Below are positions 2,231 through 35,816 of a DNA stretch of 37,939 nucleotides, in pieces. Position numbers and translations under genes: made by a program. The stretch lies in the NCBI RefSeq assembly GCF_000003605.2, contig NW_003135350.1:372831-410769 (forward strand), in the 5' to 3' direction. Within the stretch, counting starts at the first letter, position 1; every line of letters starts with the position of its first letter. The notes under the pieces are model-generated. The model was not told where the DNA came from, searched no databases, and was given only the letters and a program-made list of their open reading frames with translations. The stretch comes from Saccoglossus kowalevskii. Lineage: Eukaryota > Hemichordata > Enteropneusta > Harrimaniidae.

Positions 2231-2650
2231 ACAGAATGCGAAGCTAACAAAGACGAGTTATAATATGTTATGTTATGTTATACTATTTTATATTCTGTTC
2301 TATTATCAAGGTTCTATTATCAGAATTTTTTTTTCAATCAAGAAATTCTATGAAACTAGTTATTTTTCTGGCCTGGCCTTCAATGTGCATGTAAGCACGT
2401 AGGTTATTTTTATGTAAGGGTTATGTACTTTTAATGAAGGATAAGATGTTTCACAAATCATGGTTTTCCACCGACACAGACATTATTACAAGAATCAATA
2501 CATAATTGCATAAAGTGTGTATTACTTCTCTGTGGCATAGTGTAGTAACCACCGCAATGTTTACTATAGAAATAGCATTAGTAGAATGTACAATGAATCT
2601 ACCTAAATGTATGTACAGCAGAAAATATTGAGTAATCACAAACATGCATG

Positions 2651-2862
2651 TACTGTAAAGGGCTTAATTATTCACTGGGTTTTAATTTTGCTTATTTCGC
2701 TGACGGGAAAAATGTGCTGAATTAAAACCCAGTGAATATGTAAAATTTAGCATAGAACACATTAGCTAAATGATAAAACAGTGAATTTAAAACCTACTGA
2801 ATATGCCTGAAATGATAAATCAGCGAAATTTAAACCCAGTGAAAATTAGTCATTTTACAGTA
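2651..2862 (+). mobile_element. MITE-1 copy 1 (foldback, TA-flanked)
   Basis: This 212-bp element begins TACTGTAAAG and ends TTTTACAGTA. Long imperfect inverted arms carry the recurring phrase TTCACTGGGTTTTAATTT, and the middle repeats related phrases in both orientations. Near-identical elements lie at 15,746-15,953 and 36,711-36,921, the last inverted. The outer TA on both sides fits a TA target duplication of the Tc1/mariner type, but no transposase is present, so it is non-autonomous. Confidence 0.8.
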
Positions 2863-5616
2863 CAAGGCAATATTTAGGACAGACAAACCAAACAAATGAA
2901 CAGGAAAACATTGATGAGAGAGTAGCATCATGACATGGACGGCAATATTCAGAACAGTTAAGATCTGTAGCCAAAAATCTGTTTGGTCTAAAATCAAATA
3001 AGAAATTGTAAAAAAATAGGCAAAAATGAAAGCAAAATTTTTTTACAAGTGGTTAACAGAATTAATTGTACATCCCAGTTTTCAAAAACGTTTTTACTCA
3101 TGAATTTAGAATTACTGGTAGCCAACTGCAAACTATGTATACTTGACTGCAATTAGAGAAAATGTAAAGAGAATCTAATAAAACAATGTTCTGGTGACAA
3201 ATTAGCTCAATTCCTCTGTGAAAGTGAAGCTCATGCATTCAGGCTACGCTAATGTATAGTTACTGACATTGTCTGCACTGGGGACACATTTTTTTCTTAT
3301 CATTAAATTGAATGAATTTGTTTAAGCTTTTTTCTGCATTACCATATATCATTTTCATTAACAATAAAACATGGAGAGAGAAAAAAAATTATAATATATA
3401 AGTGAAGTGACCAAATTTAATATTGATGCCACCAGTGTCCATTTTTTGAAGACTCTCCATTAACATAATTTAAATCCAATGCAGATCAGATTTCAAAATC
3501 ATCCAGTAACATATTGACTCTGACGACAGAATTATTTGCGAACATTTCCCCCAAAATTTGGTTTGTGAGACTGTTCTTTTTAATAATTTTCTTCTGCCTA
3601 GTACTGACACAAGGAAGACTACAAACAAATGTTTAAGTATTAAACGATCACACCATGAGAAAATTGTAAACCAAATAATTTGTTGTAATGTTCCAACCCC
3701 TGCATAACCAGACAATGAATAAATATAAAGAGATATCAGAAGTTCTTTTTTTACTTTTTATTTTGTAACGCTACCAACGATGAATCGTAAAATATTCATA
3801 GTGGACATCATACAACGAGATAAAATGTAGAGCTCATAGACCTTCTCATTACCATTGGAGACACACCGAGATAAAATGAATAGCTTGCAATCTAGAAACA
3901 CGTCTCATATTACAGAGCATTTTATATAAATATGTATTTTCACACAGAAAACTACAAACATTTGCTATCTCCCACACAGATTAAGCTCTATAATATCAGA
4001 GCTTCCAATTATCTACTGATAGTGAATGCAGAACCATGCCAACGTAAGGACATAGAGAGTGATATGATAGGCATATATCAACCAAACACATATACATGTA
4101 TAAGCACTCAACGTAAACGGAAACACTAAATATTGAGAAAAAAAACATTATTATAAATACATGTATATTTTATCCCAAATTAAAAAAAAAATTAATATAA
4201 AATTATTTATAATAAATACACATTAACGTTTCTTTAACAATTAAAAAAAAATATAGATTGTACATCTGCTTCAAATCATGATAAAATATTCTGCCGAAAG
4301 AAAACCGCTAACGCTGCATTTATGATGACACACGGGTATACAATAAAGAAAAATGAAAGGCTTACCATACGTATACATTACTGGCATCATACATACAGAA
4401 TACTGGTAGTGCTGTATATATGGGATGTGGGACTCAGTAGAAGTGATGACAAAGTTTGGTGATTTTAACTGATGCGAGGTTTTCAGGTGAAATGCCTGGT
4501 ATATTTAAATGAACGGACCATGTACTCAGCCATTCAAACGCTCCAGCTGTTTAAGGTAATGGCAGGGGTGGACTACCTAGGTTAGTCTGAATAATTGTAA
4601 GTGCCCTGCAGTCTTGTGAGATATTTCAAACGGCCCCTGGATCCCTGTGCTGCAGACTATTAAGGCTGAGGTCACGTGTAAATCATCCAACTAATTACTG
4701 TCTTTCTGTAATATTTTTTTCATTATTATTTTTCTAATTCCCTTAAGCTCATCAAGACACTATCAGCAAGCCAAATTTGACTTCATATGTTATGTCATGT
4801 AGTCCCCATCATTATAATTGTGCTACTTAAGTGAAAAGCCTACTCATAAATTAAAAAACCCAGAATTTATTCATTTTGAATAAATGAATATATAGGGGGG
4901 AAAAGTTGGGGGGGGGGGCGTGATTATTAATGGTTGTATTTAAAGTGGATACATGTATTGGCAGTATTATAACACCTTTACCATAGGTTCCTATGGCAAC
5001 ATATGCCATGTTATATCTCAAATTGTAGGCTTGTGACAGATAAAAATCATACATGATGGGGTACTTTTTGTTGTCTTCAATTATTTAAAAAATCTGGGTT
5101 TTAAAAAGTGTCAAAATATGCAATTCTATAAAATAGTTCTAAAAATAGTGATTTCTAAAAATATTTGGGCAAGTTAATCAAAAAAATGTCACAAAAAATT
5201 GCTCTTTCATTGTGCCACGAGACAATAGCTCCATGATTGTACACAATAAACCAATAAACATTGTCATGCGATTTATGACCAACTTTTTTCAAAAAATTAT
5301 GAGGAAGCTTTTACCTGGAGAAAGCTCTACTAAGAACTCAGATTGGAAGCATACTAGTGTACACATCACCCACACCTTGCCCTTTGCCAGCAGGCAAGTT
5401 ATAAAATCAAAATTTATAAATATACATACAACATTTTATTTTAAGCCTTCCACCAACCTTGTCAACTGAAATCACAATTGTAAAACATTTTGAAAATCAG
5501 TTGTGAATGAGAATCAAAATGCATTCTCAATCCGCAGAAAAACATGCAACTTTCACTTCCACATTTGTATAGTGGTTGCAAATGGCTTTTATGCAAGTTA
5601 GGTTATTTAAGGCTCA
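2863..5616. other. Non-coding AT-rich stretch
   Basis: No gene or long repeat is recognised. There is a G-run of about a dozen Gs near 4,907-4,918, a purine-rich flank, and an X-box-like site at 4,987-5,000. Short ORFs here lack codon structure or any recognisable family signature. Confidence 0.6.
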
Positions 5617-9979: not shown

Positions 9980-10056
9980 AAAAACTAAATGGTTGCAAGT
10001 TACCCATTTCAGATCTAATCTGAAAAACAAATTGATGTGTATCAAGGTACCATAAT

Positions 10057-10790
10057 ACCAACCCTACCAAACGTTAAAATGGTTAACTACCAACCCCACC
10101 AAACATTGAAATGGTTAACTACCAACCCAACTAAACATTGAAATGGTAACTTCCAACCCTACTAAACATTGAAATGGTAACTACCAACCCTACCAAACGT
10201 TGAAATGGTAACTACCAACCCTACCAAACATTGAAATGGTAACTTCCAACCCTACTAAACATTGAAATGGTAACTACCAACCCCACCAAACATTGAAATG
10301 GTTAACTACCAACCCAACTAAACATTGAAATGGTAACTTCCAACCCTACTAAACATTGAAATGGTAACTACCAACCCTACCAAACGTTGAAATGGTAACT
10401 ACCAACCCTACCAAACATTGAAATGGTAACTTCCAACCCTACTAAACATTGAAATGGTAACTACCAACCCTACCAAACGTTGAAATGGTAACTACCAACC
10501 CTACCAAACATTGAAATGGTAACTACCAGCCCTACCAAACGTTGAAATGATTAACTACCAACCCAACCCTTTTCTCCAGCCATGTTGAACTGGTTAACTA
10601 CCAAACCATAAAATGGTCAATTACCAACCCTGCCAAACATTGAATTGGTTAACTAAAGACCCTACCAAATGTTGAAATACAGTAGTTGACTACCAATCCT
10701 ACAAAATGTTGAAATGATAACTACCAACCCTACTAAATGTTGAAATGGTTCACTATAAACCCTATCAAACTTTAAAATAGTTAACTACTA
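10057..10790 (+). repeat. 31-bp minisatellite with higher-order structure
   Basis: About 23 tandem units of 31-32 bp, each opening like ACCAACCCTACCAAAC and closing like GAAATGGTAACT. The first 16 or so units (to about 10,560) are highly uniform. The rest are diverged and include a unit with an insertion near 10,565. Variants differ at fixed sites (CCTACC/CCAACT/CCCACC, ACGTT/ACATT, starting ACC or TCC). A six-unit block at 10,089-10,275 is repeated without visible change at 10,276-10,462. Confidence 0.95.
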
Positions 10791-10887
10791 ACAATATATC
10801 ACCTCTCCACTATTATTTTAGCAGACACCATTCTCACAGAATGTATTAAAATGTGCCAGGCATCTCAACATTCTGTCAATTTATTTT

Positions 10888-11157
10888 ATGTCCACTTGCA
10901 CTTTCAATCGAATCCAAGTATTTTACCGAGGTCAAATACATGTTCTCTTAGTAGTCACGCATGGCTATGTGGGGAATACATTGAAATTTAGTTCACAAAA
11001 CCATGCGATTCAAACGATGAAAAAATTACAGAAGACTGACATTTTGAACAAAAATTTTGGTGGGATCAAACTTGGCAGTGAAGAGGATAAACTTGATTTC
11101 TATTCAGTGAAAAGACAATTTGCACTCTTTGACTTTTTTCCCCCTTTCACAAAATAA
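10888..11157 (+). CDS. Unrecognised 89-codon ORF between two minisatellites; doubtful gene
   Basis: An ATG-initiated open frame of 89 codons lies between the 31-bp and the 56-bp arrays. The product has no motif I recognise. It has no signal peptide or obvious membrane segment, and is lysine/asparagine-rich in the middle with an aromatic, proline-containing C-terminus (LFDFFPPFTK). The last 55 or so bases of the frame are a diverged first unit of the downstream 56-bp array, so the stop and C-terminus come from repeat DNA. There is no clear splice site, Kozak context or neighbour to support it. It is most likely a chance ORF, listed because it is the longest non-repeat ATG frame in this 2-kb zone. 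Confidence 0.12.
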   Translation: MSTCTFNRIQVFYRGQIHVLLVVTHGYVGNTLKFSSQNHAIQTMKKLQKTDILNKNFGGIKLGSEEDKLDFYSVKRQFALFDFFPPFTK

Positions 11158-11160
11158 ACC

Positions 11161-11932
11161 TGTACAAAATGAAATCTTCACTCTTTGAATTTTTTTAAAC
11201 TTTCACAAAATAAATCTGTACAAAATGAAATCTTCACTCTTTGAATTTTTTTAAACTTTCACAAAATAAACCCGTACAAAATGAAATCTTCACTNNNNNN
11301 NNNNNNNNNNNNNNNNNNNNNNNNNNNNNNNNNNNNNNNNNNNNNNNNNNNNNNNNNNNNNNNNNNNNNNNNNNAATGAAATCTTCACTCTTTTGAATTT
11401 TTTTTAAACTTTCACAAAATAAATCTGTACAAAATGAAATCTTCACTCTTTGAATTTTTTTTAAACTTTCACAAAATAAACCCGTACAAAATGAAATCTT
11501 CACTCTTTGAATTTTTTTAAACTTTCACAAAATAAACCCGTACAAAATGAAATCTTCACTTTTTGAATTTTTTTAAATTTTCACAAAATAAATCTGTACA
11601 AAATGAAATCTTCACTCTTTGAATTTTTTTAAATTTTCACAAAATAAATCTGTACAAAATGAAATCTTCACTCTTTGAATTTTTTTAAATTTTCACAAAA
11701 TAAATCTGTACAAAATGAAATCTTCACTCTTTGAATTTTTTTAAACTTTCACAAAATAAACCTGTACAAAATGAAATCTTCACTTTTTGAATTTTTTTAA
11801 ATTTTCACAAAACAAATCTGTACAAAATGAAATCTTCACTCTTTGAATTTTTTTAAACTTTCACAAAATAAACCTGTACAAAATGAAATCTTCACTCTTT
11901 GAATTTTTTTAAACTTTCACAAAATAAACCCA
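11161..11932 (+). repeat. 56-bp minisatellite interrupted by an assembly gap
   Basis: About 13 tandem units of 56-57 bp, each opening TGTACAAAATGAAATCTTCA and closing TTTCACAAAATAAACC. Units differ at a few sites (TTTAAACTTTC vs TTTAAATTTTC; CCCG, CCTG or TCTG at the joint; CACTC vs CACTT). A diverged edge unit precedes it at about 11,105-11,160. A run of 80 Ns at 11,295-11,374 lies inside, so the true copy number is unknown. The minus-strand ORF here is only the repeat read through. Confidence 0.95.
11295..11374. other. Assembly gap (80 N)
   Basis: Eighty consecutive Ns sit inside the 56-bp tandem array. The gap very probably reflects failure to assemble near-identical repeats, and its real length need not be 80 bp. 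Confidence 0.99.
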
Positions 11933-24001: not shown

Positions 24002-24320
24002 AAAGGCCAGGACTGACCAGGAATTTTTTTGTTAGGCCTATTTATATAGCAGCCTGAAAAAAATAATTTTGCACATATAACGTACTGATCACACTGCGAT
24101 GAGAAAAATTGCGAGAAGTATTGATATCATAGAATATTCATATTCCGACATTTGATTGGTGGCCTACCCCACCAGTATGCACTGAGATTGACTAATTAGC
24201 CTTGGGGTCATAGGTCAGTTTTCAAAGGAATGACAAATCATCAATGATTCATACAACACGCAGTTTGACAGATTTTTTTATTTTTTTTTACAATAAATCC
24301 AACTTGTTTGGTGAGTGTCA

Positions 24321-24391
24321 TACCCCAGACCATTCGTCCCGGTGTTATCGCTATCGCCACACGAGACTCCAGCTTGTCTCCTATACAATTT
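24321..24391 (+). repeat. Left terminal inverted repeat (71 bp)
   Basis: Exact reverse complement of 25,758-25,828. Begins TACCCCAGACC and ends CTATACAATTT. Confidence 0.95.
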
Positions 24392-24679
24392 TCCTTCTGC
24401 CCACTTAATTTTAATATTCATATGACCTTTGCACTGACATCGATAGCCAATCGCATTCGACCGCGGACGTCACTCTAAATAAACAACTGAATAAATTAAT
24501 ATACCATATTTGGAAGATAGCGGGTAAATTCAACGTTGTTGGTGTGTTCCTTCGGGTTCCGAAGTCGCACGAAACGAGTTCATGTTCCGTTATCTTTCGC
24601 AAGTAAAACAGGTCGATATGTATTAAACATGGCATTTGTTTTCTTGTTTTAACCCCCTTATTACGCAAGCTTCCGTCGA

Positions 24680-24930
24680 GTGGTGTTTTTTTCGACGATT
24701 TGTGGCATGTTGCAAAACGAACGAAACATTGCGGCATTCTTAGCGGTGGATAAGGGATCGACTATGTCGTCACATTTATGTCTCGTTTGAAAGAGAATAA
24801 ACAACCGCTCAGAAAAATATGTTGCTAATATTTAAGTGCGGTGCCTTGAAATCGCCTGCCCGACGTCCAAATTTCAAAAGGATGTTCGATTTGCAATGAC
24901 GACCGTTCATATGTACTAGGCGACGTTACT
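24680..24930 (+). pseudogene. Decayed duplicate of the ZAD-like gene
   Basis: This stretch aligns with about 24,987-25,560 in the same orientation. Shared blocks are ATGTTGCAAAAC, GCGGCATTCT(T/C)AGCG, the cysteine-pair region around 24,770-24,790, CCTTGAAATCGCCTGCCCGA and ATTTGCAATGA(C/T)GACCG. Three lesions are readable. The start is GCGGTGG instead of GCGATGG. About 210 bp that encode the CRLC pair and the LF segment are deleted. In the second pair the TGT of LVCK has become TGA. A further deletion removes the segment before KSPARP. It is clearly non-functional, and older or less constrained than the neighbouring copy. Confidence 0.75.
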
Positions 24931-25088
24931 AATTACTACTAGGGTCGGTGTTTGCATTAAGAATTATAGAACAAAAGATCAGCAAAGCGGTGCTTTTGTC
25001 GGCGATTTTGTCAAAGGGAATATTGATAAAATGTTGCAAAACAGAATCGCGAGTTGGGTGAAAAATTGCGCCGGCGGCATTCTCAGCG

Positions 25089-25436
25089 ATGGCGACACCC
25101 GAGAAACACCGTGTCACGGTGCATTCGTGCATCAGTACACCGAAGAAATACATACATATTGTTGCGGACGACTATTGTAGACTGTGTTCGTGTAGTCTTC
25201 GAGTTTGTGGACAGTTAAAGTCGTGTGTGAATTTATTCAAGCCAGGAAAAGCAGGAGGGATAACTTATAGAAATCGTCTTTCCAATTTGATCCAGTGCGA
25301 CGTTGTGAAAGGAGCGACTCTGTCGTCTCATCTATGTCTAGTTTGTAAGAGAAAGATTGATAGCGCAGAAAAATCCGCCAATAATGTAAAACAGTGGCGT
25401 GAAATTGTCAGTCATTCTATATCTCCCAACCTGTGA
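25089..25436 (+). CDS. ZAD-like CxxC...CxxC zinc-binding protein, transposon-borne
   Basis: An ATG in good context (GCGATGG) opens a 115-codon frame. Residues about 28-33 read DYCRLC, followed by a short cysteine-containing loop (CSCSLRVCG), an LFKP segment at about 49-52, a leucine-rich stretch (LSNLIQCDVV) and HLCLVCKRKI at about 79-88, then a charged helix to the end. The order CxxC, LF, helix, CxxC is that of the zinc-finger-associated (ZAD-type) fold, known for dimerisation in arthropod zinc-finger proteins and seen in many uncharacterised invertebrate proteins. The frame stops at 25,434-25,436, and an overlapping frame continues with KSPARPRSSSKRR, so a frameshift or a spliced tail is likely. 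No DNA-binding C2H2 array is present. Its role, for instance as captured host gene or element accessory, is unknown. Confidence 0.55.
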   Translation: MATPEKHRVTVHSCISTPKKYIHIVADDYCRLCSCSLRVCGQLKSCVNLFKPGKAGGITYRNRLSNLIQCDVVKGATLSSHLCLVCKRKIDSAEKSANNVKQWREIVSHSISPNL

Positions 25437-25660
25437 ACGAAAGGGTTAAGCGTGCTGCCTTGAAATCGCCTGCCCGACCACGTTCAAGTTCAAAACGACG
25501 TTCCATAACTTTCTCACATTCAATTTGCAATGATGACCGCAGTTCAAATGTACTTAGCGACAATTTCCTTAGAAATCATTTTGATTTGATTTATGGATGG
25601 CGAGCACCGACACTCCGATCCGATGAACTAATCAAAACTAAAATGGCGCGTGTCACGTGA
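25437..25660 (+). CDS. Possible frameshifted C-terminal continuation of the ZAD-like protein
   Basis: The frame overlapping the stop of the ZAD-like ORF stays open for some 75 codons without its own ATG. It reads a basic serine/proline linker (RVKRAALKSPARPRSSSKRR), then SITFSHSICNDDRSSN. Such a basic linker suits the region after a ZAD-type domain. The decayed duplicate preserves the same DNA block (CCTTGAAATCGCCTGCCCGA), so it belongs to the ancestral unit. The simplest reading is a frameshift in the present copy; an intron boundary or chance are alternatives. Beyond about 25,573 the match to the duplicate ends. Confidence 0.35.
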
Positions 25661-25757
25661 CTTTGTTTACTAAAGATAGCGTGGGCGTTTGATTGACACT
25701 CAACTCATTAGTATTCCACCAATCACAGCTACATCTACTTTCTGGATGTGCGCAGTC

Positions 25758-25828
25758 AAATTGTATAGGAGACAAGCTGGAGTCTCGTGTGGCGATAGCG
25801 ATAACACCGGGACGAATGGTCTGGGGTA
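25758..25828 (-). repeat. Right terminal inverted repeat (71 bp)
   Basis: Exact reverse complement of 24,321-24,391; ends GGTCTGGGGTA directly before the TGAGTGTCA target duplication. Confidence 0.95.
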
Positions 25829-25837
25829 TGAGTGTCA

Positions 25838-34600: not shown

Positions 34601-34692
34601 TTATTTAAATATTCCAAAATGGAAACAAAATGGTTTCAGTCGGAAAGGTTTCAATGAATCAGTATTATGATGATGAAAAACGAAAAATATGA

Positions 34693-34702
34693 TACGTACG
34701 TT
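34693..34702 (-). promoter_or_regulatory. 5' splice site of the PIK3R exon
   Basis: On the minus strand CCCAAAC|GTACGTATC gives two overlapping GT choices: intron starting at 34,699 (AAC|GTACGT, preferred by consensus) or at 34,695 (TAC|GTATCA). The choice alters phase, so the next exon is needed to decide. Confidence 0.65.
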
Positions 34703-35045
34703 TGGGTGATGAGGTTTCCACATAGCCAGAGTCATTGCTAAAACCATCATCAAAGCTTGACTGGTTTGCTGGTGGAGGTGTGGGTACTGGCCTTCTCGGT
34801 TGAACTACTGGTCTAGTTCTGACAAACGTTTCTACAAATTCCACAAATGTTCCAGGGAAAAGACCTACTTCTTTTGTACGTTCATTGACGCCTTCCAGCC
34901 AACAATTGGGGTTTTCAACTGTGCCATTAAATTCAGGCGACGTTGCCACGGGATTTTCAACTATAAGTATGTCTCCTTTTGCGAGCTCCAAGTACCCGTC
35001 ATCGGAAAAATCGTGCATAGCCCTATACTTCGCCGTGACAGCCAT
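34700..35045 (-). CDS. PIK3R1: PI3-kinase regulatory subunit (p85 class), first coding exon with SH3 domain
   Basis: The p85 subunit stabilises the p110 catalytic subunit and brings it to tyrosine-phosphorylated receptors. The start is the ATG at 35,045 in AAAATGG context; upstream codons in this frame lack another ATG. Residues about 5-72 form an SH3 domain: AKYRAMHDF (ALYDY equivalent), LELAKGDIL, an enlarged loop (about 32-47) as in p85 SH3 domains, then WLEGVNERTKEVG and LFPGTFVEFV. This last block closely follows vertebrate p85 [23 protein letters not shown] in pattern. Residues about 76-92 are proline-rich (RPVVQPRRPVPTPPP), as expected after the SH3, followed by an acidic DSGYVE segment. 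The exon ends at a GT donor, AAAC|GTACGT (alternative four bases on), after about 115 codons. RhoGAP-like and SH2 exons would lie to the left, within or beyond the window; none is recognised. Confidence 0.92.
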
Positions 35046-35816
35046 TTTGAACGGTTTATCTCTTACTTCCTGTTCGCCAACAAATCGTCTGATCACGAAC
35101 CTAGCCCCGAGTAAAAAATGTATTTCCGCCTAGTCTGGAGATTATTGGCGGGTGAGGTTGACAGTGTCCACTTTGATAAGTTATATCGGTAATTCTAGAG
35201 TCTAACAGTTTGAAAACAGCAGCTTGTCAAGTTGAACAGTGCTGTAAACTAGCCCCGGAAACTTTCAGAAGTTTTGAAAAATTGCGACAGACAGTGTGAC
35301 TGACCAGTAAATATAGGGACAGCATGCATAATGTACAGTAGCCCTATTATTTCCGGGATCACACAAGGCACAGAGATAACAGAATTAGGCACACGTTTAT
35401 ACACGATTGATGATCTAGTTGTGCAAAGAGTCCATAGCAATCTACGTACCTACGCCCAAGCCATCAGACTGGCCGCCATGTTGACATCAATTTCATCAAA
35501 CGAGCGAGTTCAGTCCGAGTTGACTTACAAATCACCCCAAAATAACGTCTACTTGGCAGCTTTCATGCAATCAAATAACGTTCACTACTGGAAGGGAAGA
35601 CAAGGCAGTTCAGGATTCCACGTCTACTTGATGCTTTCGTAAATATCCGACGGAATAAACTGCAAACAGTACAGGATGCAAAAAGTACACATGGTTTGTA
35701 AAGCTGACTGACATACGTCACATGCAAATTTCTCACCCAGAGAGCGCCGCCAACGATATCAGAAAGAAACTTCGTCTTCTTTTGTTTTCTTGTACATATC
35801 GAGTTGGGATTTGGTC
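35046..35816 (-). promoter_or_regulatory. 5' UTR and promoter-like region of the PIK3R gene
   Basis: This is the sequence upstream of the start codon. It is less AT-rich than most of the window and contains AACATGGCGGC (35,472-35,482 on the minus strand), an exact YY1-type element often found at or just after transcription starts of TATA-less genes. A donor-like GCGTAG|GTACGTAG follows about 20 bases further downstream, so a non-coding first exon ending near 35,447 is possible. A 103-codon plus-strand ORF overlapping here (35,331-35,642) is not supported as a gene. Confidence 0.5.

Follow-up and report, generated by a model that had tools for sequence, protein, structure and literature searches.

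The genome of the hemichordate Saccoglossus kowalevskii contains a genuine, recently active family of non-autonomous transposons which, on sequence grounds, appears to be MULE-like. We examined one member in a window of 37,939 nucleotides (the whole stretch of DNA analysed here, C2731:372,831-410,769) and searched the assembly of 572 Mb and 4,830 contigs for its relatives. The reading that we prefer, at a probability of roughly two in three, is a young cut-and-paste family of MULE-like elements whose members arose by internal deletion from an autonomous element with a ZAD-like gene and are moved in trans. Mechanistically, the deleted copies would descend from an autonomous parent whose own or accessory gene carried a ZAD-like zinc-binding domain, probably in an N-terminal position. 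A transposase supplied in trans would bind the terminal inverted repeats (TIRs) and move the copies. Within this picture, we infer the superfamily as well as the part played by the ZAD-like protein.

Architecture of the window element

The element comprises 1,508 bp (24,321-25,828) and lies between two copies of TGAGTGTCA, a target-site duplication (TSD) which occupies positions 24,312-24,320 on the left and 25,829-25,837 on the right. The left TIR (24,321-24,391, plus strand, first bases TACCCCAG) and the right TIR (25,758-25,828, minus strand) are perfect reverse complements over 71 bp, and the termini read TACCCCAGACCATTCGTCC. The repeat finder gives 74 nt for the arms since the outer TCA/TGA of the TSDs pair by chance. 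Direct reading and the repeat finder together confirm the exact 71-bp TIRs abutted by the duplicated nonamer which the original prediction had described.

The interior is read on the plus strand. The left internal region (24,392-25,061) contains, as the direct repeats D3, D5 and D8 show, a degenerate, partial duplicate of the ZAD-like exon within 24,752-24,905; in many copies this duplicate matches the protein weakly (E 0.3-0.6) and includes a stop. It is followed by the ZAD-like ORF (25,062-25,433, or 25,436 with the stop; ATG at 25,089), which is frameshifted near 25,418. Frames read in other copies continue it across 25,434-25,660 (KRAALKSPARP...), a region of which about 160 bp are missing from many copies. 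The right subterminal region (25,661-25,757) is partly common to a sister family discussed below.

Elsewhere in the window, a frame on the minus strand (34,668-35,129) resembles the SH3 portion of the p85 regulatory subunits of PI3K (E 1.5e-8; Pfam SH3 models below cut-offs). The transposon may sit in an intron of this p85-like gene or downstream of it. Long minisatellite arrays with 31-bp and 56-bp units occupy 10,056-10,792 and 11,123-11,930. An Rfam scan of the window returned nothing above threshold, and phage records gave no match.

A recently dispersed family of copies

The original prediction had proposed a genome-wide search with the TIR. A 30-base pattern with up to three mismatches finds 91 TIR ends (47 forward, 44 reverse), and a degenerate pattern finds 101 related ends (49 and 52) in the 572-Mb genome; the control patterns, reversed in the case of the former, find none. 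BLAST with the whole element yields at least 125 matching rows. Among the best 40 of 93 candidates scored, rows longer than 1 kb show 94-100% identity, most of them 98-99%, and identity falls as low as 86% in a few shorter rows. The high identity of the long matches points to a recent burst. A recent, non-autonomous insertion had also been predicted, and it agrees with this identity, with the multiple copies and with the lack of a transposase in the copies read.

Both ends were recognised in 24 copies of the fetched loci. Exact 9-bp TSDs flank 19 of them, 10-bp TSDs flank two (L054, L059), and three (L006, L057, L040) have none. Lengths range from 51 to 1,589 bp, with 3,489 bp for L059, 2,802 N included.

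Empty sites exist in the genome for three copies other than the window copy (L002, L004 and L046). Eleven joined sites served as the query, and the scored rows were filled by the repeat in the L002 flanks: joined with one TSD, these flanks give unbroken matches of 97-98% among the best 40 of 4,486 candidates. One such empty site, in locus L087, matches at 176 of 180 positions with no gap, whereas the version with two TSDs requires a 9-nt gap. Two further rows match the joined L005 site at 82-89%. Copies L004 and L046 each sit within their own tandem array, and adjoining units of the array lack the insertion. Flanks of the window copy are absent from the rows scored, which show no empty site for it. 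Inverted termini, a TSD of constant length, dispersed copies and the three empty sites are the features of a non-autonomous TIR DNA transposon.

A local inverted duplication, or a chance inverted repeat, would account for the single copy present within the window. The 101 related ends, the TSDs in 21 of 24 copies and the empty sites of three other copies argue against it and leave it a negligible probability; local inverted duplication is ruled out on these three grounds. A TIR unique in the genome and devoid of related copies, the outcome which the original prediction had set against a transposon, is not what the search returned.

Four micro-elements of 51-74 bp (L039, C3243:60,870; L043, C4199:8,451; L044, C2:10,834; L045, C4511:131,028) consist of little beyond two TIR ends that abut, and every one is flanked by an exact TSD of 9 bp. 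Abortive gap repair probably left them behind; otherwise they may be minimal mobile units. Locus L041 extends over 9.9 kb from a lone diverged end; read by eye, it shows a micro-remnant flanked by ATTATGTAA and no transposase-like frame.

Superfamily and partner transposase

Very little is known about animal MULEs, according to the excerpts of PMC6446971 used here. These excerpts give MULE TSDs of 8-11 bp and TIRs of 14-500 bp, and list Spectre, Phantom and Ghost among the invertebrate groups. For Spectre they report an 8-bp TSD, a C2H2 finger and a TIR of 74 bp in the text and 76 bp in the table. Arthropod MULE TIRs typically measure 20-95 bp in the excerpted part of PMC13359780. The family studied here resembles invertebrate MULEs in its TSDs (9 bp in 19 of 24 copies, 10 bp in two, none in three, against the range of 8-11 bp) and in its perfect 71-bp TIR, which lies within the 14-500 bp range and is comparable in length to that of Spectre (PMC6446971, in excerpt). 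In the same excerpts, the zinc fingers of invertebrate MULEs reside in transposases or accessory ORFs, a placement to be compared with that of the ZAD-like ORF. The family differs in two respects: the search for a MULE transposase linked to its TIRs was negative, and the finger types listed in the excerpts (PHD, FLYWCH, SWIM, C2H2, CCHC and RING) do not include ZAD. Among the papers listed in literature searches, no title or opening of an abstract deals with this element or describes a ZAD within a MULE, and a search for TACCCCAGACCATT found no paper.

The MULE assignment made at the outset thus stands as far as the TSD and the TIR are concerned; it is consistent but unproven because no transposase was found between the same TIRs. 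Profile searches of the genome gave 12 matches to PF10551 (MULE), one to PF12762 (Merlin-type) and 13 to PF21787 (P/TNP-like). All of these matches are more than 70 kb away from the 79 TIR sites compared, sites that represent the 100 ends listed out of 101; for the MULE and Merlin-type matches, this result is to be read with the many interiors that consist of N. A longer relative with the same TIRs and a MULE or Merlin transposase, which the original prediction had suggested looking for, was accordingly not met with near these sites. Since many copies are interrupted by N runs, an autonomous copy may be hidden.

Copy L059 (C2261:2,764,576-2,768,064) is a candidate for a longer or autonomous element. 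It measures 3,489 bp with a 10-bp TSD, and its interior holds 2,802 N, as compared to 662 bp expected from other copies. In the seven other copies whose gap separates two matched parts, the N run departs from expectation by +13, +19, -108, -138, -164, -223 and -447. The excess in L059 suggests that C2261 may hold about 2 kb more.

Four MULE loci were read (L069-L072), two of them more widely as L083 and L084. Six loci (L069-L072, L079 and L082) were scanned with the opening 16 bases of the TIR, four substitutions being allowed; one match with four mismatches turned up, in L071, and no TIR of the window-family kind was seen in the two wider loci. Within L084 (C1214:334,500-341,500), at 2,367-3,872, two unlike ends (GATTCTAGGCCCGTTG... 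and GGATGTAGGCCCGTTG...) stand 1,488 bp apart and span most of the MULE frame. These degenerate TIR-like ends are flanked on both sides by ATGCAGTGG (9 bp) and are dissimilar to the window-family TIRs; L084 is possibly another MULE family of the same genome with its own TIRs. In L083 (C1009:156,500-163,500) a MULE transposase fragment lies between minisatellite arrays of about 52-bp units in inverted orientation (2,005-2,709 and 4,469-4,630), an arrangement which is reminiscent of foldback-like MULEs.

Two other partners have to be considered. Merlin (IS1595-like) elements are TIR transposons of animals with TSDs of 8-9 bp, and the genome contains an open frame of 365 amino acids with an IS1595-like domain (L085, C3085:399,124). 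We nevertheless regard a Merlin transposase as an improbable partner: this sole match in the genome is unlinked, 71.6 kb from the nearest TIR compared, and the 10-bp TSDs of two of the 24 copies fit the 8-11 bp of MULEs better (PMC6446971, in excerpt). As a single frame of its kind, L085 may reflect domestication.

A P/TNP-like partner is suggested by locus L079 (C4066:843,739-846,918). There, a ZAD-like stretch (20.9 bits, under the cut-off) is followed, in other frames of the same strand, by a coiled-coil-like stretch (under cut-offs) and by an RNase H domain of the TNP-like type (E 1.2e-18). The TSDs of P elements, though, measure 8 bp, no TNP-like match lies near the TIR sites compared, and by eye the ZAD-like stretches of L079 and of the element share little beyond the cysteine pattern. 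This partner is very unlikely.

Origin and state of the ZAD-like frame

The ORF displays a C-x2-C ... C-x2-C pattern, as does zf-AD (PF07776), which it matches over positions 1-60 of the 75-position profile. The window ORF scores 16.3 bits (E 0.012) and the ORF of copy L058, 137 amino acids long, 16.0 bits, both below the curated cut-off of 28 bits; 'ZAD-like' is therefore a fair label while membership in zf-AD is unconfirmed. ZAD-like domains are known chiefly from arthropod C2H2 proteins. Unlike these, the ORFs read have no C2H2 array downstream and are carried by a transposon. A PDB sequence search with the ORF of L042 and NCBIfam searches with L058 and L042 gave no match.

In the window copy the frame ends early because one A is missing near 25,418, which is present in 20 of the 21 copies aligned there. 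Past this point the frames of L042 and L002 remain open (199 and 210 amino acids), and other copies hold open frames of 103-210 amino acids with the CRLC motif. Changes within the young burst amount to 13 nonsynonymous, four synonymous and one stop, next to a neutral N:S ratio of 3.49, and several deletions break the frame. Judged by these counts, the ORF is drifting within the burst, a decaying passenger in the copies themselves.

Older relatives place the frame further back in time. Loci L074 and L076 have the same TIRs and subterminal regions, with the ORF at the corresponding place, and their aligned pieces show about 73-89% DNA identity. L073 represents a sister family with different TIRs, in which the ZAD-like frame adjoins homologous right-subterminal DNA; both C-x2-C pairs are absent from it. 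Its flanks, GGTTATTCG and GGTTATTTG, form a 9-bp TSD with one mismatch (by eye).

A search with the sister-family TIR finds 26 ends, with one pair, 2.24 kb apart, at C4450:75,000-77,243. This non-autonomous family of about 0.65-2.2 kb includes L073 and members on C1172, C2343, C4446, C4450, C4170, C2359 and C3167. They possess homologous right subterminal DNA and TIRs unlike those of the window family, and the ZAD-like frame was seen in L073 alone. Among the best 40 of 111 candidates in the L073 search, most rows belong to a different dispersed repeat nested in this locus; a further seven places match the ends of L073 or its subterminal region, and none of the seven the ZAD stretch.

The ZAD stretch of locus L075, used as a query, gave 59 rows. 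By our own count, 15 places reach E 1e-3 or better beyond the young family and the query place, and two of them (L086, L087) were read. The relic L086 shows a weak DNA match to the left end of the element (62%, E 5e-6). L087 and L075 have no similarity to element DNA beyond chance-length matches, which suggests that ZAD-like loci may in some cases lie outside elements. A scan of ten loci for TSD-flanked inverted repeats found none at the strictness used, although BLAST recognises the TIRs of L074 and L076.

Traces of selection were sought by comparing L042 with five relatives. For L073, pN is 0.33 and pS 0.93 (saturated), giving pN/pS 0.35 (95% bootstrap 0.24-0.50); L075 gives 0.36 (0.25-0.50), L074 0.58 (0.37-0.90), L077 0.67 (0.43-1.08) and L076 1.12 (0.54-4.99). 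The pieces were picked by protein similarity, which lowers pN. In 400 neutral simulations at 46% divergence the median is 0.83 and the minimum 0.48; at 50% divergence the minimum is 0.54. At 30% divergence the median is 0.77, the 2.5% point 0.51 and the minimum 0.43. None of the 400 simulations is as low as 0.35-0.36, at 46% or at 50% divergence, which supports constraint for just two of the five relatives, L073 and L075. The sequences of L074, L076 and L077 display no clear constraint; they fit relics and weaken the claim of a lasting function. Old constraint combined with drift in the burst fits an ancient element gene that is now passive in deletion derivatives.

The original prediction had spoken of a Pack-MULE-like element. 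Non-autonomy, long TIRs, a 9-bp TSD and a coding-like interior are features of plant Pack-MULEs, all of them found in the window family as well. In such a scenario a fragment of a host ZAD-like gene was captured and is carried as cargo by a non-autonomous element. The absence of a transposase from the copies read, the neutral drift of the ORF, as expected of cargo, and the tendency of MULEs to acquire host gene fragments (PMC6446971, in excerpt) speak for it. We consider it unlikely all the same. The window-family interior differs from that of plant Pack-MULEs in being old, common to families and without an identified host donor; the ORF was present before at least two element families diverged. 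Protein searches (in six frames and exon by exon) met no long intact relative outside the family, and none of the five zf-AD matches in the genome exceeds the cut-off, the best reaching 27.4 of 28 bits; a donor of the internal sequence was found by neither approach. A recent capture of a host gene is thus unsupported, since the ORF is common to old relatives and the sister family (L074, L076 and L073) and no donor was found in these searches; an ancient capture may have occurred. The other possibility raised at the outset, a genuine element protein, fits better with an ORF that occurs both in diverged relatives sharing the TIRs and in a sister family. Most likely, going by these sequence relationships, the ORF is a leftover piece of an old gene that belonged to the element itself.

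A further proposal, also improbable in our estimation, assigns the ZAD-like protein to an undescribed lineage of animal transposases as their DNA-binding part; the lineage would be MULE-like, or else a new group whose TSDs measure 9 bp. Copies with the ZAD alone would then encode a small TIR-binding protein which interferes with the full transposase as a self-limiting repressor, and the C2261 copy would be a candidate for the complete element.

In the reading that we prefer, that of deletion derivatives moved in trans, the unread C2261 interior is a concrete target for locating the parent element. Should this parent turn up and prove to be a MULE, ZAD would add a zinc-finger type to those in the table of PMC6446971, as excerpted. 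That a recently active family has kept a ZAD-like exon which bears signs of old constraint suggests that transposons carry zinc-binding domains of this kind along with them.
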